Below are positions 8,431 through 27,560 of a stretch of 64,000 bases of DNA, piece by piece. The DNA is from Armatimonadota bacterium (GTDB lineage Bacteria; Sysuimicrobiota; Sysuimicrobiia; Sysuimicrobiales; Kaftiobacteriaceae). The DNA is taken from the NCBI GenBank assembly GCA_031459765.1, contig JAVKHY010000012.1:1-64000 (forward strand). The letters are read 5' to 3'. The position numbers and the translations under genes are program-made. The stretch's first letter is position 1. Every line of letters begins with the position of its first letter. The notes beneath the pieces were generated by a model. That model did no database searches and had not been told where the DNA came from. It worked only from the letters and a program-made list of their open reading frames with translations.

Positions 8431-8585
8431 AACCGCGTCGAGGTCCAGAAGATCCGGAAGGTCTCCGCACCGCCGGTCTGCTGCGCATCGAGACGCCGCC
8501 TGCGACCGAGTGGCGCGTGACGCCTGTGTTACACTTCCTTGCTCTGCTTTACGGAGTGACCGTTGCGTTCCCGTGGAGGTGGGCG

Positions 8586-9068
8586 ATGAGGAGATCCCTG
8601 ATGGCCGCAGTGTTCCTGGCCGTGACGGCCGGCACCCTGACTCCCGCCCGCGCCCAGAGCACCGGGTTCACGGCGCGGCTCTCGGGGCAGGAGCAGGTGC
8701 CCGTCGTCAGCACGGCGGCGACGGGGCTGGCCGTGTTTCAGCTCAACGCAGATCAAACGAGGCTGTTCTACCGCCTCGAGGTCCAGAACATCCAGAATGT
8801 CCTCATGGCCCACATCCACATCGCCCCGACAGGCCAGAACGGGCCGGTCGCCGTCTGGCTGTATCCGCCGTCGCCGCCGCCTGTGCTGATTCCCGGTCTT
8901 TCCAGCGGAATTCTGCAGACGGGCACCATCACGGCGGCGAATCTGGTGGGGCCGCTGCAGGGCAGGGACATGGGCGCCCTGATCGGCGCGCTGCGCGCCG
9001 GGAACGCCTATGTCAACGTCCATACGAGCCAGTTCCCCGGCGGGGAGATCCGAGGACAGATCCGGTGA
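8586..9068 (+). CDS. Secreted CHRD-domain protein
   Basis: 160 residues from ATG 8586, following GGAGGTGGGCG. The N-terminus (MRRSLMAAVFLAV...PARAQS) is a Sec signal peptide with an AxA-type cleavage site, so the mature protein is exported. The mature part is a single CHRD domain, recognised by FTARLSGQEQVPVV, AHIHIAPTGQNGPV and the C-terminal AYVNVHTSQFPGGEIRGQI. CHRD domains occur in chordin and in many bacterial secreted proteins of unknown function. A 155-base gap upstream holds no recognised gene. A perfect hairpin follows the stop codon. Confidence 0.9.
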   Translation: MRRSLMAAVFLAVTAGTLTPARAQSTGFTARLSGQEQVPVVSTAATGLAVFQLNADQTRLFYRLEVQNIQNVLMAHIHIAPTGQNGPVAVWLYPPSPPPVLIPGLSSGILQTGTITAANLVGPLQGRDMGALIGALRAGNAYVNVHTSQFPGGEIRGQIR

Positions 9069-9082
9069 GGTGAGCGTCGGGC

Positions 9083-9104
9083 GAACGCCGGGCCGCCGGC
9101 GTTC
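9083..9104. terminator. Putative bidirectional terminator hairpin
   Basis: Perfect 9-bp stem (GAACGCCGG / CCGGCGTTC) with a 4-base loop, between the convergent CHRD gene and the cydC stop codon. There is no U-tract, which is common in high-GC genomes. Confidence 0.5.
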
Positions 9105-9131
9105 CTGCCGGCCGCGTATCCATCCGGCCCG

Positions 9132-10889
9132 CTAGGCCGTGGGCGCCGGAAGCAGCAGGCGGTGCTGCAGGTCCCACATCCGGCGGTAGAGCCCGCTCCG
9201 GGCCAACAGGTCGGCGTGACGCCCGCGCTCGACGATGCGCCCCCGGTCGAGGACGAGGATTTCATCCATCGCCTCCATGCCCACCAGCCGGTGGGTGATG
9301 AGCAGCAGAGCGCGTCCTCTGCCGATGCGGCGCAGCGCCTGCAGGATCTGCTCCTCCGTGGCCGGATCGAGGTGCGCGGTCGGCTCGTCCAAGAGCAGCA
9401 GCGGCGCGTCTCGGAGGAGCGCCCGGGCGAGGGCGAGGCGCCGGCGCTCACCGCCGCTCAGGGCCATCCCGAACTCGCCCACCCGGGTCTCGTAGCCCTG
9501 CGGCAGCGACCGGATGAAGGCATCGATCCCGGCCGCCTCCGCAGCCCGCATCACCTCCTCGTCCGTGGCCTCGGGCTTCGCCAGGAGGAGGTTCTCGCGG
9601 ATCGTGGCGTTGAACAGATGCGTGCGCTGAGGGACCACGGCCAGGAGGCGGCGCACGTCCTCTCCGCTGCAGGACCGCAGCTCGGCGCCGTTCAGCAGGA
9701 TGGAGCCGCGCTCGTAGTCCCAGAAGCGCAGCAGCAGATGGCCCAGGGTGGACTTTCCCGCCCCGCTGGGTCCCACCACGGCCAGACACTGGCCCGTTTC
9801 CAGGGAGAAGGAGACGCCGTCCAGCACCCAGGGACCGGTCGGCGCGTAGCGGAAGCACAGCTCGCGCACCCGGAGGGACACAGGGCCCGGGGATCCCGAC
9901 AGCGCGGCCGCCGCCCCTGCGGGCGGATCGGCGACGGCGGGGGAGACGTCGACGATGCCGACGACCCGCTGCGCCGCTTCCATCGCGGCCGGGAGCGCCC
10001 GCCCGGCCTGGGGAAGCGGAGCCACGGCCTCAAAGCTGGTTAGCGCGGCGAGGACGATCGCGGCCAGAAGGAGGGGAGGTATCCTCCCGGCATCAACCAG
10101 GGCCACGGCCAGCACCAGCACCGCCCACATCCCCAGGTGCGCCAGCAGGCCGGTCCACGCCTCCTGCCAGGCCCCGGTGCGCGCCGCGGCATCCTGCGCC
10201 CCTGCCAGCGCGCGACCGGCGGCGCGGATCCGCTCCAGCCAGCCGACCTCCCGGCCGGCGGCGACGATATCCGGCATCCCCGCCACCGCATCGACCACGG
10301 CGACCCTCAGCGCGGATCGGGCCCGCACCTGCCGGATCCCGGAGGATCGGCTCGCCCCGTAGGTCCACGCCGTCACACCTCCGCCGACCAGGAGCAGGAA
10401 GACGACGAGGATGAGCGCCAGGCGGCCGTCGAGGCGCGCCAGGAAGAGGGCGACGGCCAGCGTGACGACCGCGGCCACGGCGGGCGGGGCAATCACGCGG
10501 AGGAAGAGGTGCTCGAGCTCTTCGATGTCGGCGACCCACCGGTTCAGGACGTCGGCGCCCCGGTGTGCCATCAACCGGGCCGGGGCGAGGGGCTCGACCT
10601 GCTCGTAGAACCAGACCCGCAGACGTCCCAGGATCCGGAAGGTCACCGCGTGGGAGACGTACCGCTCCAGGTACCGGAAGACGCCGCGGGTGATGCCGAA
10701 GGCGCGGACCCCGACGACCGGCAGCTGCAGCGCCGCCACCGGGGGATGGAGCGCGGCCAGGGCGATGAGATAGGCCGAGGCGGCCAGCAGTCCGATCCCG
10801 CTGAGGACCGTGGCCGCGCCCAGGAGCACGACCACGGCCATCTGCGGGGCGAAGGGCCCGAGGAGCCGTAGCAACCGCCGGATCCTCAC
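9132..10889 (-). CDS. cydC: Cytochrome bd assembly ABC exporter, subunit CydC
   Basis: 585 residues from GTG 10889, whose GTGA overlaps the cydD stop. Membrane-ATPase fusion: six transmembrane helices in the first about 300 residues, then an ABC ATPase with Walker A GPSGAGKST, signature LSGGERRRLALARAL and Walker B LLLLDEPTAHLD. CydDC exports cysteine/glutathione (and binds haem) and is needed to mature cytochrome bd. It is the last gene of a cydA-cydB-cydD-cydC operon, which makes the assignment firm against generic lipid exporters. A longer frame reaches 10922 but would run far into cydD. Confidence 0.93.
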   Translation of the reverse strand: MRIRRLLRLLGPFAPQMAVVVLLGAATVLSGIGLLAASAYLIALAALHPPVAALQLPVVGVRAFGITRGVFRYLERYVSHAVTFRILGRLRVWFYEQVEPLAPARLMAHRGADVLNRWVADIEELEHLFLRVIAPPAVAAVVTLAVALFLARLDGRLALILVVFLLLVGGGVTAWTYGASRSSGIRQVRARSALRVAVVDAVAGMPDIVAAGREVGWLERIRAAGRALAGAQDAAARTGAWQEAWTGLLAHLGMWAVLVLAVALVDAGRIPPLLLAAIVLAALTSFEAVAPLPQAGRALPAAMEAAQRVVGIVDVSPAVADPPAGAAAALSGSPGPVSLRVRELCFRYAPTGPWVLDGVSFSLETGQCLAVVGPSGAGKSTLGHLLLRFWDYERGSILLNGAELRSCSGEDVRRLLAVVPQRTHLFNATIRENLLLAKPEATDEEVMRAAEAAGIDAFIRSLPQGYETRVGEFGMALSGGERRRLALARALLRDAPLLLLDEPTAHLDPATEEQILQALRRIGRGRALLLITHRLVGMEAMDEILVLDRGRIVERGRHADLLARSGLYRRMWDLQHRLLLPAPTA

Positions 10890-12610
10890 GGGTCGCCTCC
10901 CGCGGCGACGGCATCCCGCCACCCGATCTCGACCAGCCGGCGGTAGAGACCCTCCCGCCCCATCAGCTCCCGGTGGGTGCCGGCCTCGACCACGCGGCCC
11001 CGGTCCAACACGATGATCCGGTCGGCGTGCTGCAGGGTGTGCAGGCGGTGGGCGATGAGCACCGTGGTGCGACCCTGCATCAGACGGGCCACGGAGTCCT
11101 GCAGGGCGGCTTCCAGGTCGGGGTCCAGAGAAGACGTGGGCTCGTCGAGGATGACGAGCGGCGCGTCCTTCAGAAACGCCCGCGCCAGGGCGACGCGCTG
11201 GGCTTCCCCGCCGCTGAGCCGCATCCCGTGTTCGCCGATGACCGTCTCGTAGCCCTGCGGCAGTGCGGCGACCACGGCATCGAGGTGGGCGGCGCGCGCC
11301 GCCCGCTCCACCTCTTCCCGGGAAGCGTCCGGACGGGCCAGACGGATGTTGGCCAGCAGCGTGTCGTGGAACAGGGAAGGGCTCTGCGGCACCCAGGCGA
11401 TCCGGGTCCGCCAGGCCGCGGCCGGCCAGGCATTCAGGGGGCGCTCTCCGACCAGGATCCGTCCCTCGGTAGGCTCGAGGAAGCGCAACAGCAGGTGGGC
11501 GATGGTGCTCTTGCCGGCCCCGCTCCTCCCCACCAGGGCGACCGTCCGCCCCTGCGGGATCACAAAGGAGACGTCGGCCAGGGCCCGCCGTCCGTCGCTA
11601 TAGACGACGCCGACACCGTCAAACCGCAGGTCGTCAACCCCGGGGTCGTCGGCCCGTCTCTCGTCCGCGGCAGGGCGCGCACCGGCAGGAGGAAACGGCG
11701 CCGGGGTGTTCAGGATCTCCAGGATTCTCCCCGCGGCGGCGACGGCCGCGGCGCCGGCGTGAAACCGCCCGCCGAGCAGCCGCAGCGGCAGGTAGAACTC
11801 CGGCGCCAGGATCAGGATGAAGAGCGCCGTCTCGAACGTCATCCGGCCGTACAGCAGCTTCAGCCCCACCGTCACGGCCACGATCGCGGTGCTGATCATG
11901 GCGATGATCTCCAGCACCAGCGCGGAGAGGAAGGCGACGCGCAGGACCTCCAGGGTCACGGCGCGGAAGCGCTCGCTCATCTCGGCGATGGTGCGGGCCT
12001 GCCGGCGGCTCCGGCCGAAGATCTTCAACGTGGTCAGCCCCGAGAGGACATCGAGGAAGTGGGCGCCGAGCAGGCCGAGCAGCTCCCACCGTCGCCGGGT
12101 CAGGGCCTGGGCGGCGCGGCCGATGAGGAGGGCCAGGATGGGAATGCAGGGGGCGGTCAGCAGCAGGAGCAGCGCGGAGAGCGGATCGGCCGGGGCGATG
12201 AAGGCCAGGAGGGTCGCCGGGATCAGCGCGGCGAGGGCAACCTGGGGGAGGTAGTGGCGGAAGTAGGCGTCCAGGGCCTCGATGCCCTCGACCGCCGCCG
12301 CGGCCAGTTCGCCCGTCCGCTCACCGCGCGTGTAGGCCGGGCCGAGGGCGAACAGGTGGGCACAGAGCCGCTCGCAGAGGTCGGTTTTCACCCGCAGGGC
12401 GACGCCGGCGGCGGCGACCTCTCCCGCCCAGACCAGGGTCGCCCGGGCCACGATGACCGCCAGCAGGGCGGCCAGCGCGGGAATCAGGGTGGGGAGGCGG
12501 CGGCCGTCGAGGAACACACCGGCGATGACGCCGCTGAGGAGGGATGCCTGCAGGACGACGAGCACGGCCGTTCCGACGCCCGGGGCGATGGCCAGCGCGA
12601 GATCCCGCAT
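10886..12610 (-). CDS. cydD: Cytochrome bd assembly ABC exporter, subunit CydD
   Basis: 574 residues from ATG 12610; an in-frame GTG at 12643, just after the cydB stop, is an alternative start. N-terminal transmembrane domain (about residues 1-300), then an ABC ATPase: Walker A GRSGAGKST, signature LSGGEAQRVALARAF, Walker B LVILDEPTSSLD. It forms the heterodimeric CydDC thiol exporter with the next gene. Position between cydB and cydC and the GTGA overlap with cydC support the identity. The open frame continues far upstream through cydB, but that part is not CydD-like. Confidence 0.93.
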   Translation of the reverse strand: MRDLALAIAPGVGTAVLVVLQASLLSGVIAGVFLDGRRLPTLIPALAALLAVIVARATLVWAGEVAAAGVALRVKTDLCERLCAHLFALGPAYTRGERTGELAAAAVEGIEALDAYFRHYLPQVALAALIPATLLAFIAPADPLSALLLLLTAPCIPILALLIGRAAQALTRRRWELLGLLGAHFLDVLSGLTTLKIFGRSRRQARTIAEMSERFRAVTLEVLRVAFLSALVLEIIAMISTAIVAVTVGLKLLYGRMTFETALFILILAPEFYLPLRLLGGRFHAGAAAVAAAGRILEILNTPAPFPPAGARPAADERRADDPGVDDLRFDGVGVVYSDGRRALADVSFVIPQGRTVALVGRSGAGKSTIAHLLLRFLEPTEGRILVGERPLNAWPAAAWRTRIAWVPQSPSLFHDTLLANIRLARPDASREEVERAARAAHLDAVVAALPQGYETVIGEHGMRLSGGEAQRVALARAFLKDAPLVILDEPTSSLDPDLEAALQDSVARLMQGRTTVLIAHRLHTLQHADRIIVLDRGRVVEAGTHRELMGREGLYRRLVEIGWRDAVAAGGDP

Positions 12611-12648
12611 CCGCGCCTGTCGCCACAGCGCCGGGGCGGCCACGGAGG

Positions 12649-13665
12649 TCAGTAGGTCAGGGTCTCTGCTTTGGCCTCGACGCGCCTGCGGAAGACCCAG
12701 TAGGTCCAGCCCTGGTACAGGAGGACGATGGGGGTGAAGATCAGGGCCACGATCGTCATCACCTTCAGCGTGTAGGCGGACGAGGCGGCGCTGTAGATGG
12801 TCAGGCTCCACGCCGGGTTCAGGCTGGAGACCATCACGCGCGGATAGAGAATCATGAAGAAGGTGGTCGAGGTCAGGAGGATGGCCAGCGCCGTCGTGAC
12901 GAAGGCCCAGCCGTCGCGCCGCCGGCTGACCAGCGCTCCGGTGAACAGGAGGGCGGCCGCGGCGCCGACCGGGACGGGCCCGGGGCTGACGCCGAGCCTG
13001 GCCAGGATGTCGGTGGCGCCATAGGTGGCGACCGTGAACGCCAGGGCGATGAACACGGTGGGAGCCCACAGCCGCCGGGCCGTAGCCCGGGCCCGGTCCT
13101 GCAGCTCGCCGGTCGTCCGCAGGCTGAGGAAGATCGCCCCGTACAGGGTGAAGACGGCCAGCAGCGCCAGCCCTCCCAGAAGCGCATAGGGGTTGAGGAG
13201 GGTGAGGACCCCGCCCACGTAGGTCATCCGGTCATCGATGGGCACCCCCCGTACCATGTTGGCGAAGGCCACGCCGAACACCAGCGCCGGCAGGAGGCTT
13301 CCGGCGAACAGGCACCAGTCCCACACCGCGCGCCAGCGGGGATCGCGGCGCTTGCTGCGGAACTCGAAGGCCACGCCGCGCACGATCAGCGCCAGCAGCA
13401 CGACGAAGAGGGGCAGGTAGAAGCCGCTGAACAGCGTCGCATACCAGTGGGGGAAGGCGGCGAAGGTGGCGCCGCCCGCGGTGATCAACCACACCTCGTT
13501 GCCGTCCCAGAACGGGCCAATGGTGTTGATGATCGCCCGGCGCTGGAGGTCGGTGCGGCCGAGGAACGGCAGCAGCATCCCCACCCCGTAATCGAAGCCC
13601 TCGAGCAGGAAGAACCCCGTGTAGAGGACTCCGATCAGGACGAACCACAGCGTGTTCAGGTCCAT
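12649..13665 (-). CDS. cydB: Cytochrome bd ubiquinol oxidase subunit II
   Basis: 338 residues, ATG start. Integral membrane subunit of the bd-type terminal oxidase, partner of CydA. The family N-terminus is clear (LWFVLIGVLYTGFFLLEGFDYGVG, then GPFWDGNEVWLI), with about eight or nine predicted helices and the usual length of 330-380. The complex oxidises quinol and reduces O2 to water with high affinity, allowing microaerobic growth. It lies 18 bases after cydA and is followed by cydD. Confidence 0.96.
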   Translation of the reverse strand: MDLNTLWFVLIGVLYTGFFLLEGFDYGVGMLLPFLGRTDLQRRAIINTIGPFWDGNEVWLITAGGATFAAFPHWYATLFSGFYLPLFVVLLALIVRGVAFEFRSKRRDPRWRAVWDWCLFAGSLLPALVFGVAFANMVRGVPIDDRMTYVGGVLTLLNPYALLGGLALLAVFTLYGAIFLSLRTTGELQDRARATARRLWAPTVFIALAFTVATYGATDILARLGVSPGPVPVGAAAALLFTGALVSRRRDGWAFVTTALAILLTSTTFFMILYPRVMVSSLNPAWSLTIYSAASSAYTLKVMTIVALIFTPIVLLYQGWTYWVFRRRVEAKAETLTY

Positions 13666-13683
13666 CGCCTTCTCTCCCGCGCC

Positions 13684-15060
13684 TCACAGTTGCGCCGACG
13701 CCGTCGCCGGCCACTCCTCGATCGTCGCCGCGACGGTGCCCTGCCGGGCGAACCGGATCAGCAGGTAGGCGGTCACGACGGTCAGCAGGGTGTAGAGGGC
13801 CGTGAAGCCCACCAGCGAGAGCAGGACCGAGGCGGCGGAGACGTTGGGGGACAGGCCGGCCTCGGTCTTCAGCAGCCCCTGGACGATCCAGGGCTGCCGC
13901 CCGACTTCGGCGACGATCCACCCCGCCGTGTTCGCCAGGTAGGGCAGGACGATCGCCCAGGCGAAAACCGCCCCGGCGCGCCGGCTGAAGGTGAGTTGCT
14001 CCGCCATGACCTGGAAAATGGCATACACCGCCAGGGCCAGCAGCACGAACCCGGCGCCGACCATGGCCCGGAAGCTCCAGTACATGAGGACGGGGGGCGG
14101 GATGTAGTTTCCGGGACCGTACCGGGCCCGGGACTCGGCCTGCAGGTCGTTCATGCCCTTGACTTCGCCCGTGAGCTGGTTGTAGGCTAGTAGGCTCAAC
14201 AGGCGGGGAATGCGGATGGCGAACACCTCGCGCCGCTGGCGCAGATCGCCGATGGTGAGGAGGGAGAAGGAGGCGGGGTTCTCGGATTCGAACAGCCCTT
14301 CCACCGCGGCAATCTTCATCGGCTGGACGACGGCTTTGTACCGCGCCTGCCGGTGCCCGTAGAAGATGGTCAGGCCGATGGCCATCAGCGCGACGATGCC
14401 GGCGATCTGGAAGGAACGGCGGAACAGCTCCACATGGAACTGCCGCGCCAGGTGATAGGCGCTGATCCCCAGGACGAAGAAGGCGGCGGTGGTGAAGGCG
14501 GCGGCTACGGTGTGGGGAAACTGCACCCAGAGGTGGGGGTTGAGGATCAAGGCGAAGAAATCGGTCATCTCGGCGCGCCCCCCGCGCACGATGAACCCCA
14601 CCGGTTCCTGCATGAAGGAGTTGGCGGCGAGGATCCAGGTGGCCGAGATCGTCGTGGCCAGCGCCACCAGCCAGATCATCAGGAGGTGCAGCCGCCTGGA
14701 CAGCGTCTCCCAGCCGAACAGCCACACCCCCAGGAAGGTGGACTCCAGGTAGAAGGCCAGCAGGGCTTCCACGGCCAGCGGCGCCCCGAAGACGTCGCCG
14801 ACGAACCGTGAGTATTCGGACCAGTTCATTCCGAACTGGAACTCCTGCACAATGCCCGTAACCACACCCATGGCGAAGTTGATGAGGAGGAGCTTCCCCC
14901 AGAACTTCGTCATCTCTTTGTACACCTGCTGGCCGGTGCGGACGTAGATCGTTTCCATCAGCGCGACGAGGAAGGAGAGGCCGATGGTGAGGGGGACGAA
15001 GAAGAAGTGGAAGATCGTGGTCAGGGCGAACTGCCAGCGGGCGAGGATCAGAGCGTCCAT
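13684..15060 (-). CDS. cydA: Cytochrome bd ubiquinol oxidase subunit I
   Basis: 458 residues from ATG 15060, preceded by a strong GGAGGGGGAG site. Haem-bearing subunit: H18 (TTIFHFFFVPLTIG) matches the b595/d ligand of CydA, WVQFPHTVAA carries the b558 His, and GRQPWIVQG is the conserved GRQPW motif. The protein is shorter than E. coli CydA (522), which fits the short Q-loop (actinobacterial/firmicute-type) form. First gene of cydABDC; the 134 bases upstream presumably hold the promoter, though I see no clear -35/-10 pair. Confidence 0.96.
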   Translation of the reverse strand: MDALILARWQFALTTIFHFFFVPLTIGLSFLVALMETIYVRTGQQVYKEMTKFWGKLLLINFAMGVVTGIVQEFQFGMNWSEYSRFVGDVFGAPLAVEALLAFYLESTFLGVWLFGWETLSRRLHLLMIWLVALATTISATWILAANSFMQEPVGFIVRGGRAEMTDFFALILNPHLWVQFPHTVAAAFTTAAFFVLGISAYHLARQFHVELFRRSFQIAGIVALMAIGLTIFYGHRQARYKAVVQPMKIAAVEGLFESENPASFSLLTIGDLRQRREVFAIRIPRLLSLLAYNQLTGEVKGMNDLQAESRARYGPGNYIPPPVLMYWSFRAMVGAGFVLLALAVYAIFQVMAEQLTFSRRAGAVFAWAIVLPYLANTAGWIVAEVGRQPWIVQGLLKTEAGLSPNVSAASVLLSLVGFTALYTLLTVVTAYLLIRFARQGTVAATIEEWPATASAQL

Positions 15061-15194: not shown

Positions 15195-16748
15195 TCAGCC
15201 GACGGTGATGGGAACGCCGATCTCCGGCAGGAAGACCTCCATGTCCCCCAGCAGCGTCTCGGCGAAGCGCCGGGGGACCTCGGTGTGGACGGGGATGACG
15301 CGGGCCGGCGCGATCTCGTAGATCAGCTCCCGCAGCTCCCGGCCGCTGATGTGGCCGGAGGCGTGGAAGGGGGAGGCGCCCTCGGCCAGGCCGACGGGCG
15401 TCAGGTGGAAGCGGTCGATCCAGTTCCGCAGCCGCTGCAGTTCGAACTGCTGCTCCTCGTCGTGGGGCTCGCTCGCAGAGTAGATCCACCGCCCGCCCCG
15501 GGGGTCGATGTCCACCAGTTCGGCCACGTCGAAGAAGGAGAAGCAGCAGATGAACTCCCCGGGCGCGGCGCCGACGACGGCGGCGTCCACCTGCTCCGGA
15601 TACCACTCCCGCACCCGCTCCACCCACGGCGCGGGCTTGAGCAGCGCCCGACGGTAGACGACGAGGTGCCGGTCGCTCTTCGGCGTCGGGATGGAGGGAT
15701 CGACGGCGTGCATCGCCGTCAGCAGGTAGGCGTCCCGGTCGGTGACGGCCAGGCGCCGGCCGGTGCGGCGGGCGATCTCCAGGAAGGTCAGCAGCCGCTC
15801 GACGTTGCGCGGCCCGAAGTCGGCGACGACGAATTGTCCCGCCGCTTCGCGCACCGCGGCCAGACACGCCTCGCGCACCTGGTCCTCGCTGGCGCCCGGC
15901 TCTTGGCCGAAGTTGGTCCCTTCGCTCACCAGAGCCGCGGGCCGGAGCGCGGCCGCTTCCGTGACGAAGCGGTCGGTGAGTTCCCGCCGGCCTCCGTGCC
16001 GGCGCAGGTCGCCGGTGTAGACCACCCAGCCCGCCGAGGTCTCCACGGCGATGGCGGCCGCGCCATAGATGGAATGGTCCACGGGCAGGAAGCGCACGGC
16101 GCACCCGCCGATGCGGTCCACGGTGCGGAGGGTCTGCGGGGGAAAGTAGCGGCCCCGGGGCGCGGCCGGGGAGAGGTTCCAGAAGTCTTCGGGATCGGGG
16201 CGCACCCCGTCGGCGATCAGGTAGGTGCGCCGCTGATAGGGGAAGGCCCTGGGGTCGCCGGCGCCGATGGCGCCCTCGTCGCCGGCCACCCTGGGGACGG
16301 TGTAACACAGCTCCCCTTCGAACTGGTGCGCCCCGCAGTCCTGGATCGCCTTGGCCAGGTACGCCGTCATACCCGTGCTGACCACGGGAATCGCCGTATC
16401 GAGGAAGGAGATGTATCCGCAGTGGTCCAGATGGGCGTGGGAGAGGAGCACGGCGTCGGCGCGGCATTCGCGGTAGTACGGGGACCGCTGCGCGCGCTCC
16501 CAGGCCCGCCCGCCGGCGTCTTCCAGGTCGGAGCGGTAAATCCCGCGCAGGGGCGGCAGCAGGCCCATGTGGATGAGGTCCAGCAGCCCCGTGCGCGACC
16601 GCGGGGCCAGAAACTCCTCGTAGTACAGGGCGCGGGTGTGGAAGGGGGTGCCGAAATCCAGGAAGAGGGCCGTGCCGCCGTCCTCCAGGAGAATTTTGTT
16701 CCCGCCGATGGTGGCGGCGCCGTCGTAGACCGTGATCGAGACCGGCAT
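15195..16748 (-). CDS. Metallo-beta-lactamase/beta-CASP nuclease, RNase J-like
   Basis: 517 residues, ATG start. MBL motif 2 is SHAHLDHCG (H104, H106, D108, H109), followed by the later His (VDHSIYG) and TGDLRRHG (Asp). The beta-CASP signatures are VSEGTN (motif A), FHASGHISG (motif B) and IPVHTE (motif C), matching RNase J/CPSF-type enzymes that process nucleic-acid ends. It is not a canonical RNase J: the N-terminal region before the metal motif is long and the C-terminal dimerisation domain is absent. It is followed in transcription order by nothing on this strand until cydA, and preceded 19 bases upstream by a Cas4-like protein, so the two likely act together on DNA or RNA. Confidence 0.85.
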   Translation of the reverse strand: MPVSITVYDGAATIGGNKILLEDGGTALFLDFGTPFHTRALYYEEFLAPRSRTGLLDLIHMGLLPPLRGIYRSDLEDAGGRAWERAQRSPYYRECRADAVLLSHAHLDHCGYISFLDTAIPVVSTGMTAYLAKAIQDCGAHQFEGELCYTVPRVAGDEGAIGAGDPRAFPYQRRTYLIADGVRPDPEDFWNLSPAAPRGRYFPPQTLRTVDRIGGCAVRFLPVDHSIYGAAAIAVETSAGWVVYTGDLRRHGGRRELTDRFVTEAAALRPAALVSEGTNFGQEPGASEDQVREACLAAVREAAGQFVVADFGPRNVERLLTFLEIARRTGRRLAVTDRDAYLLTAMHAVDPSIPTPKSDRHLVVYRRALLKPAPWVERVREWYPEQVDAAVVGAAPGEFICCFSFFDVAELVDIDPRGGRWIYSASEPHDEEQQFELQRLRNWIDRFHLTPVGLAEGASPFHASGHISGRELRELIYEIAPARVIPVHTEVPRRFAETLLGDMEVFLPEIGVPITVG

Positions 16749-16767
16749 CCCTCGCCTCCCTCCAGCC

Positions 16768-18084
16768 TCAGGCCGCGTCGCCGCAGCCGCAGCGGTCCTT
16801 GAAGCGGCAGAGCCTGAACATCCAGGAGGGGCAGGGCGGAAGGTCCTGGGGTGAGGCGTTGGACTCCAGCAGCGCCAGGCGGCGGTCGGCCTCCGCCGCG
16901 ATGACGGGCAGATCCCTGAAGCCCACCTCGTAGACCATGAACTTGTCGCCGAGGAGCTCGTAGTACAGCACCAGCCGGCCCCGCTCGCGCCCGGTCAGGG
17001 CGCACTCGAAGGCCAGGCGGTCGAAGTAGTGGCCGAAGGCCTGGGGCAGGTAGCCGCGCTCGACCATCTCGCGGAACTTCGTGACGCGCAGCAAGGTCGG
17101 CACGTCGCGGAACATACCGACGCGGTCGCTCAGCGTCCGCAACCGGACCGGCCGGTTCTTGAAGGCGCCGGGGATCCCGAAGCGCAGCGCCTTGTACAGC
17201 GTGCCGCGGAAGCCGGCGCGCTCCAGCTCCTGCAGCCGCGCCTCCACGGCGCCGTCGGGTTCGTCCTCCTCGGCCGGCGTCTGACGTTCGTATGCCGACT
17301 TCCGGGGGAAGACCAGGTCGTTCAGCCGGTATCCCCGGGGCGGCGGGTCGGGCGCGGAGAGCTGCGCCAGCAGGGCGCCTTCCAGCGCCTCGTCCCGCTC
17401 GATGCGGTACCCGTCGGGCGGGACGACGCGGGCGGCCGGCGGAGCCGTCTCGCAGCCGCAGATCTCCGCGTAGTCGCAGTCGCGGCCGAACCATTCGCAC
17501 TGGGGGAGTTGCGTCGGATCGCCGCGGTCGAGGGCCTCGCGCAGCAGGTCGCGCCGGCGCAGCATCTCGCTGCGGACGGCGTCGGATGCGGTGTACTGGA
17601 CCCGGAAGGCGCGGAAGGCGCCCGGCCGGCCGATCTGCCCGCGGCGGTAGAGGAGCAGCCAGCCCGAGGAGGCCCCCGTCATCGTGCAGTACATGCCCAG
17701 CTGATCGAGGTGCGCGGGACGCGCCGCCTGCGGCGTCTCGGGGAGTGCCCCGGTCGTCTTCAGTTCGACGGGGACCTGTTCGTAGATATCGATCTTGCCG
17801 ACGATCCCCTCATACTCGACGAACTGTTCCACGAATTCCTCGGTGGAGACGGCGCGGCCGAAGAGCTCGTGGAATCCGATGCCGGCCAGCATGAGCTGGG
17901 CGCGGTCGGGGGAGGGGCGGATGTCGGTCCGCGTCCATCGGAAGTAGGCCTGCCGGGGGTTGACGAGGTCGGTGACGGAGATGCGGCGCCGCTGGGACTG
18001 GCTCTGGATGGCCGCGGTCAGTTCGTCCTTGAGGGTGCGGTTGGCGTCGATCCCGCGGACGAAGGCGGCGGCGAAGGCGGCCAC
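16768..18084 (-). CDS. Tandem-duplicated Cas4-like PD-(D/E)XK nuclease with two cysteine clusters
   Basis: 438 residues, GTG start after GGGGGAG. Two homologous halves are visible. Repeat 1 (about 33-211) starts SVTDLVNPRQAYF and has H72, D99, E107-x-K109 (VELKTT) and Q128xxxY132, the RecB/Cas4-type nuclease core, ending in cysteines C196, C203, C209, C211. Repeat 2 (about 251-434) starts LNDLVFPRKSAYE and ends in C418, C426, C432, C434, but the E-x-K has become V-x-K (LLRVTKF), so it is probably an inactive copy. The cysteines suggest Fe-S clusters. Its neighbour is a beta-CASP nuclease; no cas1/cas2 or CRISPR array is nearby. Confidence 0.82.
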   Translation of the reverse strand: MAAFAAAFVRGIDANRTLKDELTAAIQSQSQRRRISVTDLVNPRQAYFRWTRTDIRPSPDRAQLMLAGIGFHELFGRAVSTEEFVEQFVEYEGIVGKIDIYEQVPVELKTTGALPETPQAARPAHLDQLGMYCTMTGASSGWLLLYRRGQIGRPGAFRAFRVQYTASDAVRSEMLRRRDLLREALDRGDPTQLPQCEWFGRDCDYAEICGCETAPPAARVVPPDGYRIERDEALEGALLAQLSAPDPPPRGYRLNDLVFPRKSAYERQTPAEEDEPDGAVEARLQELERAGFRGTLYKALRFGIPGAFKNRPVRLRTLSDRVGMFRDVPTLLRVTKFREMVERGYLPQAFGHYFDRLAFECALTGRERGRLVLYYELLGDKFMVYEVGFRDLPVIAAEADRRLALLESNASPQDLPPCPSWMFRLCRFKDRCGCGDAA

Positions 18085-24189: not shown

Positions 24190-25281
24190 CTATGCCCCGC
24201 CTTTGCGCAGCAGGCGCGCGCGGCGGTGCAGCAGGCGCGGCCGGGCCGGGGCCGCGCCGTCGAGATGGGCCAGGGCCTGCTCGGTGTGGAGGAGGGCGCG
24301 AGAGGCGTCGCCCAGTTCCCACTCCCAGATCATGGCCAGCCGCTCCAGGACCAGCCAGCGGGGGAGCCGGCCCGCCTGCAGCTCTCCCTCCCAGAGATCC
24401 AGCAGGTCCCCGAGCCGTCCGGTGCGCCGGTAGTGGCGGGCCAGCGCCGTGACGACCCGCCGCCGCGGCGCCGGCTGGTCCTCGTCGAGCAGCGCCCGGC
24501 GGTAGCAGTCCGCCGCCTTGCCGGGCTCGCCGCGCGCGTCCAGCAGCGCCCCCAGTCCCGCCCAGTCCACCGCCGCAGGGATCCGTTGCGGCTGCGTCAG
24601 CACCTCTCCGGCCATTCCGTGGAGGGAGAGCAGAGACAGCAGGTCGGCCGCGTTGTGGGCGAAGACCGGTTCCACGACCTCCGGGTCGCCGGTCTGGAGG
24701 TACTGCACATAGAGCGAGGGGATCATCCACCCTGCCACATCGTCGACCCGGTCCACCTGCAGGATGCGTTGCTCCAGCAGGGCCAGGCTGTAGCCGCCGA
24801 GGCGTCGGTGCCACAGCCGGCGGGCCAGCGTCATCAGGTCGAGGTGGTGGCGCGCCTCGAGGTCGCAGCGCAGCCGCGAGAGCAGGAAGCGGGTCTGCAG
24901 CAGCGGCAGGTCGAAGCGGGCGCCGTTGAAGGTGACCAGCGCGTCGCACGGCGCCAGACCCTCCAGGACGGCCTCCAGCATCTCCCGCTCCCCGCCCAGA
25001 TCCCGCAGGAAGTAGTGGGTGACGACGAACTCCCCGTCGTCGAACTGTCCGATCCCGACCAGGAAGACATAGGTACCGGTGCCCCCGGCCAGGCCCGTGG
25101 TCTCGGTGTCGAGCCAGGCGATGCGCTCCCCCGGCGGGCCGACGACGCGGCCGATCCGGGCGGCGGCCTCCAGCGGGAGACGGCCGTGCACGTGATCGAC
25201 CGGCCACGCGCGGCGGCGCACCTCGAAAGCCGGTGGGGCAGCGGGGCGGAGGCGGGAGATCGCGGGGAGGGCCACGGTCAT
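24190..25281 (-). CDS. mrfB: RNase H-like 3'-5' exonuclease with TPR region, MrfB/YprB-like
   Basis: 363 residues; ATG overlaps the upstream helicase stop (ATGA). The DEDDh exonuclease pattern is complete: D58 and E60 (WLDTETTGL), D124 (FNGARFDLP), and H209 with D213 (FAHNAADLLSL). The C-terminal third (about 225-355) is helical with TPR-like repeats (PGKAADCYRRALL, RLGDLLDLWEGEL). The length and architecture match YprB/MrfB, which in Bacillus subtilis works with the helicase MrfA in UvrABC-independent repair of mitomycin C lesions. The gene order helicase-exonuclease is the same here. Confidence 0.87.
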   Translation of the reverse strand: MTVALPAISRLRPAAPPAFEVRRRAWPVDHVHGRLPLEAAARIGRVVGPPGERIAWLDTETTGLAGGTGTYVFLVGIGQFDDGEFVVTHYFLRDLGGEREMLEAVLEGLAPCDALVTFNGARFDLPLLQTRFLLSRLRCDLEARHHLDLMTLARRLWHRRLGGYSLALLEQRILQVDRVDDVAGWMIPSLYVQYLQTGDPEVVEPVFAHNAADLLSLLSLHGMAGEVLTQPQRIPAAVDWAGLGALLDARGEPGKAADCYRRALLDEDQPAPRRRVVTALARHYRRTGRLGDLLDLWEGELQAGRLPRWLVLERLAMIWEWELGDASRALLHTEQALAHLDGAAPARPRLLHRRARLLRKGGA

Positions 25282-27560
25282 TCCCCGGCGGCGGCCGTCG
25301 CGGGCCTACGGGAGGCGCGCAGGATCTCCACGGCGTCGGCCTTGCCGGTATCGCCCACTTCGAGGACCGGCCCCACACAGGAGGGGCACCCGCGGTCGCA
25401 GGCGCAACCGTCGACGAGCTCGATCGCCGCGCGCACCAGCTCGTCGTGCAGGCGGAACATCCGCTCGGCGAGGCCCACCCCGCCGGGGACGCGCTCATAG
25501 AGGTAGATCGTGGGATGACCGGTGTGCGGGGAGCGGATCTCGTAGACCCGGCCGAGGTCGTTCGGGTCGGCCATCAGATACAGCGGCGCGATGTTCAACA
25601 ACGCGTGGGAGAGGGCGGCCAGCGCCCCCTGCAGGCGCGGATTGGCCCATCCTCCGGCGAGCGCCGGCGGCAGCACCCACCAGGCGGCGGTGGTGTGCAT
25701 CGTCGTCTCGGGGAGGGCGATCCGGCCCCAGCCGATGTTCTCCTGGGTGAAGAGTTTGAGCTTCTTGAAGATCGTCGGCCGGAAGGTCACCGCCACGTCG
25801 CCGTGGGCCCGCGGCAGCAGGTCGCGGACGGCGCCGTCCTCCCGCAGGACGTGGATACCGACGGCGATCTCGGCGTCGGTGTAGTAGTCCACGTCCACCT
25901 GTTTGACGTGCGCCCGGCGCTGTTCCCAGTCCAGCCGCTCCACGTGATACTGCCGGCCGAGGTGGAGGTAGATGGCATCCTCGTGCACCAGGGCCGGCGC
26001 CGAGGCCAGATCCACCTCGCCGACGACCTCGGGTTTCGGCGCGGTTTCGTCGATAATGACGACGTTCTCGGTGGAGGCCGAGCGCAGGCTCACCTCCTCG
26101 GCGGGGAAGCGCTCGGCGATGTAGTGCCAGCGCCGTCCGTCGCAGTGCACGATCTTCTGCGCGGCCAGGGCCTGCAGGATTCCGACCGGGGGCTCCGCGC
26201 CGTAGGGTTCGTCCACCCCCAGGGGCAGTTCGAAGGCGGCGCACTTCAGGTGACTGGTCAGCACCAGCGGGTTGTCGGGGTTGATCAGCGCCTGCTCCGG
26301 CGAGTGCTCGAAGAAGTACTCGGGGTGGCGCACGATGTACTGGTCGAGGGGATCGCTCGTGGCCACCAGGAACGCCGCGGACAGGTCGCGGCCCCGTCCG
26401 GCCCGGCCCATCTGCTGCCAGGTCGAGGCGATCGTGCCGGGGTAGCCGGCCAGGATGGCCGCGCCGAGCTGGCCGATGTCGATCCCCAGCTCCAGCGCGT
26501 TGGTCGCCGCCACGACCTGGACCGTACCCTCCCGCAGTCCCCGTTCGATGGCCCGCCGCTCGCCGGGGAGGTAGCCGGCGCGGTAGCCCTGGATCGCGTC
26601 GGGGTCGCGGCCGTGGTCGCGGGCCAAATCCTTCAGGTACGTCGTGAGCAGTTCCGCGGCGAGGCGGCTGCGGCCGAAGACGATGGTCGGGATGCCGCCG
26701 TGGATCAGGTCGGCGGCCAGGTCCCGCACTTCCATCAGGGTGTCGCGGCGGATGCCGAGTTCGCGGTTCACCAGCGGCGGGTTGATGAAGGCGATGACCT
26801 TCTCGCCGCCGGGGGCGCCGGTCCGGTCGATGAGGGTGACCGGCGCGCCGATGAGACGCTCGGCGTGCTCCCGCGGGTTGCCGATCGTGGCGCTGGTGCC
26901 GATGAACTGGGGGCGGCTGCCGTAGAAGGCGCAGATCCGCCGCAGCCGGCGCAGCACGTTGGCCACATGGCTGCCGAAGACGCCGCGGTACTGGTGCAGC
27001 TCGTCGATCACGACGTAGCGCAGGTTCTCGAACAGCCGCAGCCACTTGGTGTGGTGGGGCAGGATCGCGGTGTGCAACATGTCGGGATTGGTGACCACGA
27101 TGTGGCCGGCGGCGCGGATGGCGCGGCGCGCCGAGGCCGGGGTGTCGCCGTCGTAGGTGAAGGTCTTGATCTCCCGGCCCAGCAGGCCCACCAGCCCCTG
27201 CAGCTCGTCCACCTGGTCGGCGGAGAGCGCCTTGGTCGGGAAGAGGTAGAGCGCGCGCGTCTCGGGCTCGCGCAGGATGCGCTCCAGGACCGGGAGGTTG
27301 TAGCACAGCGTCTTGCCGCTGGCGGTGGGCGTGACAACGGCGATGTGGGCCCCGCCGCGCACCGCGTCGTAGGCCTCGCCCTGGTGCGCGTAGAGCTGCT
27401 CGATCCCCCGACGGCGGAGGGCGGAGACCAGCGCCGGGTCTAGGCCCTCCGGGAACGGGACGTACCGCGGCGGCCGGGCGGGGATCTCCCGCCAGGCGGC
27501 GATCCGGGACGAGCGATGGGGATCGTGGAAGAGGCGGTCGAGGATCTGACGCAGGGTCAC
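25278..27560 (-). CDS. mrfA: DEAD/DEAH-box helicase with C-terminal four-cysteine zinc site, MrfA/YprA-like
   Basis: 760 residues, GTG start. Superfamily 2 helicase: Q-motif LYAHQ (about 56-60), Walker A TPTASGKT (77-84), Walker B DELH, motif III TSATI, and motif VI QMGRAGRG. The C-terminal MrfA/DUF1998-like region carries CACDRGCPSCVGP, the four cysteines that bind zinc in MrfA. It lies directly before the exonuclease gene with a 4-base overlap. By family, the pair recognises and removes DNA adducts such as mitomycin crosslinks; the role in this organism is inferred. Confidence 0.9.
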   Translation of the reverse strand: MTLRQILDRLFHDPHRSSRIAAWREIPARPPRYVPFPEGLDPALVSALRRRGIEQLYAHQGEAYDAVRGGAHIAVVTPTASGKTLCYNLPVLERILREPETRALYLFPTKALSADQVDELQGLVGLLGREIKTFTYDGDTPASARRAIRAAGHIVVTNPDMLHTAILPHHTKWLRLFENLRYVVIDELHQYRGVFGSHVANVLRRLRRICAFYGSRPQFIGTSATIGNPREHAERLIGAPVTLIDRTGAPGGEKVIAFINPPLVNRELGIRRDTLMEVRDLAADLIHGGIPTIVFGRSRLAAELLTTYLKDLARDHGRDPDAIQGYRAGYLPGERRAIERGLREGTVQVVAATNALELGIDIGQLGAAILAGYPGTIASTWQQMGRAGRGRDLSAAFLVATSDPLDQYIVRHPEYFFEHSPEQALINPDNPLVLTSHLKCAAFELPLGVDEPYGAEPPVGILQALAAQKIVHCDGRRWHYIAERFPAEEVSLRSASTENVVIIDETAPKPEVVGEVDLASAPALVHEDAIYLHLGRQYHVERLDWEQRRAHVKQVDVDYYTDAEIAVGIHVLREDGAVRDLLPRAHGDVAVTFRPTIFKKLKLFTQENIGWGRIALPETTMHTTAAWWVLPPALAGGWANPRLQGALAALSHALLNIAPLYLMADPNDLGRVYEIRSPHTGHPTIYLYERVPGGVGLAERMFRLHDELVRAAIELVDGCACDRGCPSCVGPVLEVGDTGKADAVEILRASRRPATAAAGE

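Follow-up and report, generated by a model that had tools for sequence, protein, structure and literature searches.

The window, a stretch of 64,000 nucleotides from genome G000, encodes a protein of 438 aa in which a Cas4/RecB-type nuclease is almost certainly, as judged from sequence comparison and structure modelling, duplicated within one chain. On the evidence of its conserved active-site residues, the first lobe likely acts as a DNA nuclease, and the second is a conserved pseudo-nuclease that retains an intact site for a metal cluster, probably of the iron-sulphur type. The preliminary description had paired this protein with the beta-CASP enzyme encoded next to it; we found instead that the neighbours conserved alongside its gene within the family are homologues of MrfA and MrfB, located in the same window (24190-27560). 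Genome G000 is 2.8 Mb in size and was compared as one of 43 genomes of the Sysuimicrobiota, most likely the uncultured phylum formerly named CSP1-3. The features discussed are listed in Table 1.

Table 1. Position and supporting evidence for the features of the locus (window coordinates)
Feature	Position	Strand	Evidence
Two-lobed Cas4/RecB-like protein, 438 aa	16768..18084	-	ORF; homologues in 10/43 phylum genomes and in Gemmatimonadota
Lobe 1, residues 1-225	17410..18084	-	Intact PD-(D/E)XK site; C196/C203/C209/C211
Lobe 2, residues 226-438	16768..17409	-	Same predicted fold; six catalytic residues lost; C418/C426/C432/C434 kept
RNase J-like beta-CASP metallo-beta-lactamase protein, 517 aa	15195..16748	-	RMMBL over Pfam cut-off; RNase J family matches
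MrfB/YprB homologue (RNase_H_2 exonuclease, TPR)	24190..25281	-	PF13482, E = 2.8e-35
MrfA/YprA helicase homologue (DEAD, Helicase_C, WHD_HRQ1, MZB)	25278..27560	-	PF09369 (MrfA Zn-binding domain), E = 6.6e-23

A tandem Cas4-like protein with one degenerate lobe

The 438-aa product had been described as two Cas4/RecB-like halves, each ending in C-x6/7-C-x5-C-x-C, and this was borne out when residues 1-225 were compared with residues 226-438 using HHalign, which aligned the lobes end to end over 198 columns with 24% identity (E = 4.8e-23). The window's protein returned no match in Pfam, NCBIfam or PADLOC (the last at E < 1), and a weak match to PDDEXK_1 was obtained for three homologues. The family phrog_1706, labelled 'CRISPR/Cas system associated', was matched by 13 of 14 homologues, and the window protein itself matched it with an E-value of 2e-14 across residues 26-210, which fall in lobe 1. 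Among PDB sequences, the best match in a profile search was the Cas4 protein 4r5q, at a weak E-value of 0.035. An AlphaFold2 model of the whole protein, built from 14 sequences (pLDDT 79), had the Sulfolobus Cas4 4ic1 as its best Foldseek match (E = 2.4e-5). Lobe 2 folded alone (pLDDT 76) again had 4ic1 as its top match (E = 1.8e-6), so that the check suggested in the preliminary description for a second nuclease fold came out positive. As the structure models are of moderate confidence and the TM-scores modest (~0.55 by target length), the assignment to the Cas4 fold leans on the Foldseek and profile results together with the motifs.

Lobe 1 resembles the Cas4-like nucleases of PHROG 1706 and PDDEXK_1 (PF12705), which include phage exonucleases; the window protein differs from these in having two lobes per chain, the second of them dead by sequence, and in the replacement of the CPRK cysteine. 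With the CRISPR-associated Cas4 proteins (SSO0001, 4ic1; Pcal_0546, 4r5q) it shares four cysteines, present in each lobe, as well as the structural resemblance to 4ic1, but it departs from them in its tandem lobes, in the absence of a match to the Cas_Cas4 profile PF01930 and in its setting. Neither PF01930 nor Cas1 was matched anywhere in genome G000, and no CRISPR-like repeat array was found around the locus, in keeping with its earlier placement away from any CRISPR. In ordinary Cas4 the first cluster cysteine lies within an N-terminal CPRK motif, and a cysteine of this type is seen in the Cas4 of locus L089. In the two-lobed proteins NPRQ or FPRK stands in place of this motif, and each lobe has its four cysteines at the C-terminal end, rather than one N-terminal and three C-terminal. 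The TM0106-type RecB-like nucleases (TIGR03491), in which PDDEXK_1 is joined to RNase_H_2, the domain of MrfB, were also considered as a family for the 438-aa protein and were rejected, since TIGR03491 had no match in genome G000; they have one nuclease lobe, fused in G032 to an SF1 helicase.

Across the 14 homologues, which come from both Sysuimicrobiota and Gemmatimonadota, lobe 1 invariantly carries H72, D99, E107, K109, Q128 and Y132, and thus a PD-(D/E)XK catalytic motif with QxxxY. Lobe 2 lacks this motif at every position: its equivalents in a profile alignment are R293, G323, L331, R333, R356 and E360, none of which is the catalytic residue, and these six positions are degenerate across the homologues. 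The D99/E107/K109 triad had therefore been correctly ascribed to the first half only, whereas the change given for the second half, a Val in place of the Glu, understated the loss, all six catalytic residues having gone. Nevertheless, all 14 proteins have the full set of four cysteines in both lobes (196/203/209/211 and 418/426/432/434). Furthermore, dN/dS values were below 1 for both lobes in all six pairs (0.08-0.43, the estimates near a dS of 1 being rough), indicating that both lobes are under purifying selection. Because its cysteines are invariant and it is under such selection, lobe 2 is a maintained pseudo-nuclease and not a decaying copy. It is conceivable that both lobes are non-catalytic in the cell and that the protein is a Cas4-derived DNA-binding scaffold, as is the TTV1 nucleocapsid protein, an inactivated Cas4 derivative (PMC4625639); lobe 2, dead by sequence, would fit such a role, but with six active-site residues of lobe 1 unchanged in 14 proteins from two phyla we regard this as highly improbable.

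According to the 2017 survey, Cas4 proteins are active nucleases, each with a single module of four cysteines (PMC5704561). A Cas4 with two lobes, one of them dead, was not described in any paper that our literature search, with most subscription papers outside its reach, turned up. A tandem Cas4 with one catalytically dead lobe, the cluster cysteines of which are invariant across two phyla, makes it possible to tell the role of the cluster apart from that of the active site.

The adjacent beta-CASP gene

The two minus-strand genes first described at this locus were confirmed as ORFs at the positions given in Table 1, with a gap of 19 bases that contains a ribosome-binding-like GGGAGG and in which no terminator-like site was found. 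The motifs reported for the beta-CASP protein are likewise present (H104/H106/D108/H109, HASGH at 462-466 and PVHTE at 486-490), and its RMMBL domain (PF07521) scores 23.5 bits against a Pfam cut-off of 21.6. By PDB sequence matches, the nearest solved relatives of its family are EF2904 (2az4) and RNase J; however, the window protein scores 51.2 bits with the RNase J profile TIGR00649, far below the cut-off of 400, and as such belongs to a subfamily separate from RNase J. Beta-CASP enzymes that act on RNA are marked by an RMMBL domain and by a His in motif C. The motifs of the window's protein point to RNA, and we class it as an RNA enzyme of the RNase J-like kind. It is the sole RNase J-like match in G000; no RNase J above the TIGR00649 cut-off was found in this genome or in any examined genome of families f1 and f2, and such proteins are present in families f4, f5 and f7. 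Directly downstream of its gene (window 9132-15060) lie the genes for cytochrome bd oxidase subunits I and II, followed by two ABC transporter genes that are probably cydDC.

The coupling of this enzyme to the Cas4-like protein, proposed in the preliminary description together with a neighbourhood survey as its check, was not upheld. Among the 10 carriers of the Cas4-like gene the two genes are adjacent in one, the window's own genome, and share a contig in two more; they are thus rarely neighbours, the outcome that the preliminary description had named as refuting the pairing. In the first of these two genomes, G021, they lie ~6 kb apart with a transporter operon between them; in the second, G015, they are 2 kb apart, the beta-CASP gene being truncated to its first 86 residues and the Cas4-like gene intact. 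In G014 the two are on separate contigs, and no beta-CASP relative was found in G018 or G013, both of which are incomplete genomes. Close relatives of the beta-CASP protein occur in G034, G014, G019, G020, G021 and G028, and more distant ones in ten other genomes (G037-G040, G001, G002, G007, G008, G010 and G011); most of all these genomes do not have the Cas4-like gene. As the adjacency is limited to the window's genome, the coupling is a local arrangement, specific to this lineage on the gene orders compared, and a beta-CASP/Cas4 operon was rejected.

That the two proteins jointly process nucleic-acid ends is hence very unlikely, and these comparisons largely refute it. The common strand, the short gap free of a terminator-like site, the shared neighbourhood in G021 and the beta-CASP remnant in G015 would agree with such a module; set against them are the restriction of adjacency to G000, the separate contigs of G014, the truncation in G015, the lack of a Cas4-like gene in most beta-CASP carriers and the RNA-type motifs of the enzyme itself. 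What stands of the module originally put forward is a pair of Cas4-like lobes, one active-looking and the other catalytically dead, with a plausible role in DNA processing, and not the beta-CASP partnership. No paper combining beta-CASP, Cas4 and neighborhood was retrieved by the literature search. In family f5 (L055 7203-10278 and L056 7690-10894), a distant beta-CASP relative is flanked by an ERCC4 nuclease-like gene and by a DndB-like gene, the latter located downstream of an SMC-like gene; an ERCC4 nuclease gene is adjacent to the beta-CASP genes of G037 and G039.

Linkage to mrfA and mrfB within one family

Both the Cas4-like gene and MrfAB were found in five other genomes of the same family. 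Of ~60 window genes compared, only those for MrfA and MrfB have homologues close to the Cas4-like gene in every one of the five, at distances of 0-2.4 kb for MrfB and 0.9-3.5 kb for MrfA. The next-best window gene is kept nearby in four of these five genomes, and the beta-CASP gene in one. Altogether, the Cas4-like gene lies 0-6 kb from mrfA-mrfB in six of six same-family genomes with both found, although these are related genomes of one family, such that the counts are not independent and shared descent of gene order contributes to them. The closest arrangement is that of G014, where mrfA, mrfB and the Cas4-like gene are consecutive on one strand and the last two overlap by 4 bases. In the window, the pair is 6 kb away, past an oppositely transcribed transporter operon, and the position of the Cas4-like gene across this operon accounts for its unusual beta-CASP neighbour.

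A sixth genome beside these five, G015, has its Cas4-like gene on a short contig from which MrfAB is missing. In other families, G004 and G032 carry both in unlinked positions and no MrfA match was found in G006, an incomplete genome; in the Gemmatimonadota the Cas4-like gene is unlinked to mrfAB. MrfA was matched in 41 of the 43 phylum genomes, against 10 with the Cas4-like gene, which argues that the latter is dispensable for MrfAB. The MrfA homologue of the window (25278-27560) has one paralogue in G000 (G000:C16:44753-47017; 45% identical), and two are also common across the phylum.

By their domains, the two window genes at 24190-27560 are homologues of the MrfAB (YprAB) pair that acts in mitomycin C repair in Bacillus subtilis. 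Cas4-like nucleases have previously been linked, outside CRISPR, to YprA-family helicases (COG1205, DUF1998/MZB), and a role in defence was suggested (Hudaiberdiev et al., 2017; PMC5704561). The helicases of those loci have large inserts, whereas the window has a MrfA of 760 aa beside MrfB and a nuclease with two lobes; the link between Cas4-like nucleases and YprA helicases was already known, and it is the two-lobed, half-dead form of the nuclease that is new. A 2025 survey of YprA helicases sets a repair branch with MrfB apart from the defence branches (PMC12458937); the word Cas4 is absent from its main text, and a Cas4-like third factor for MrfAB is mentioned neither there nor in the paper on the structure of MrfB (PMC11194089). 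The authors of the latter anticipate further, unknown partners in mitomycin repair, for which the two-lobed protein would be a candidate if its link to MrfAB is functional.

A possible accessory role in DNA repair

We tentatively propose, at somewhat short of an even chance, that the 438-aa protein works alongside MrfAB in repairing DNA damage, as an accessory nuclease. This role is favoured because of the linkage in all five other same-family genomes, the overlapping genes of G014, the proximity of ogt and a fusion found in G032. The ogt gene, which specifies O6-methylguanine-DNA methyltransferase, lies within ~1.6 kb of the Cas4-like gene in four Gemmatimonadota loci. In G032, a TM0106-type protein encoded 3 kb from the two-lobed gene combines in one chain PDDEXK_1, the MrfB domain RNase_H_2 and an SF1 helicase, and so provides a precedent for a Cas4-like nuclease, a MrfB-type exonuclease domain and a helicase occurring as one unit.

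Under the proposed role, the protein would aid the MrfA helicase and the 3'-5' exonuclease MrfB in the repair of crosslinked or bulky DNA, taking on the cutting or trimming that MrfB does not handle. Lobe 1, going by its invariant motif, would perform DNA cutting dependent on divalent metal ions, and both lobes would, from their cysteines, carry iron-sulphur clusters. Lobe 2 would have been kept for its fold and four-cysteine site, most likely to grip DNA or to orient a strand. Dead nuclease domains bind or orient DNA in other helicase-nuclease machines, e.g. RecC. In a more specific form, which we consider rather unlikely, the protein would be a third excision-repair factor of MrfAB, its dead, cluster-bearing lobe gripping or measuring the DNA that the active lobe cuts, so that a helicase, a 3'-5' exonuclease and a Cas4-type nuclease would form one unit.

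Distribution and defence-like surroundings

The two-lobed protein is present in 10 of the 43 Sysuimicrobiota genomes and, of 395 genomes sampled from the Gemmatimonadota set, in five. Among public genome contigs we identified twelve loci, all from Sysuimicrobiota or Gemmatimonadota, by a scan that relies on exact peptide words and that distant relatives may therefore escape. No relatives of the two-lobed protein were found by tblastn in phages and plasmids, nor in a scan of viral contigs.

The main rival to a repair role with MrfAB is that the protein is a mobile anti-phage nuclease moving between defence islands, with its MrfAB and ogt neighbours being incidental, a reading that we judge to be a substantial possibility, albeit clearly below even. 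Two loci keep it alive. In G032 (L049 6817-16706) the two-lobed gene lies in a defence-like island together with a ThiF-like gene, the TM0106-type nuclease-helicase and an OLD nuclease, which matches PADLOC Old at E = 1.6e-55; L073, from the Gemmatimonadota, is likewise a defence-like island, in which the gene is surrounded by a Type I restriction-modification system and the candidate defence gene PDC-S11 (E = 1.4e-117). The patchy occurrence of the protein and the interpretation of Cas4-like/YprA-helicase links as defence (PMC5704561) point the same way. However, for the majority of loci no defence island is evident, the Cas4-like protein has no counterpart in PADLOC and the only linkage conserved within the family is that to the repair-type mrfAB pair.

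An ERCC4-HhH nuclease gene lies 83 bases downstream of the Cas4-like gene in G015, but was rejected as a general partner, as it adjoins the Cas4-like gene only in that genome and is absent from G000. Lastly, G000 encodes a single-lobed Cas4-like relative at 8443-9135 of locus L051 (G000:C18:2000-20000), for which tblastn returned no phage match. This paralogue has four C-terminal cysteines, and its gene, on a phage-like contig, adjoins genes for a phage-type DNA polymerase and a DnaB-like protein.
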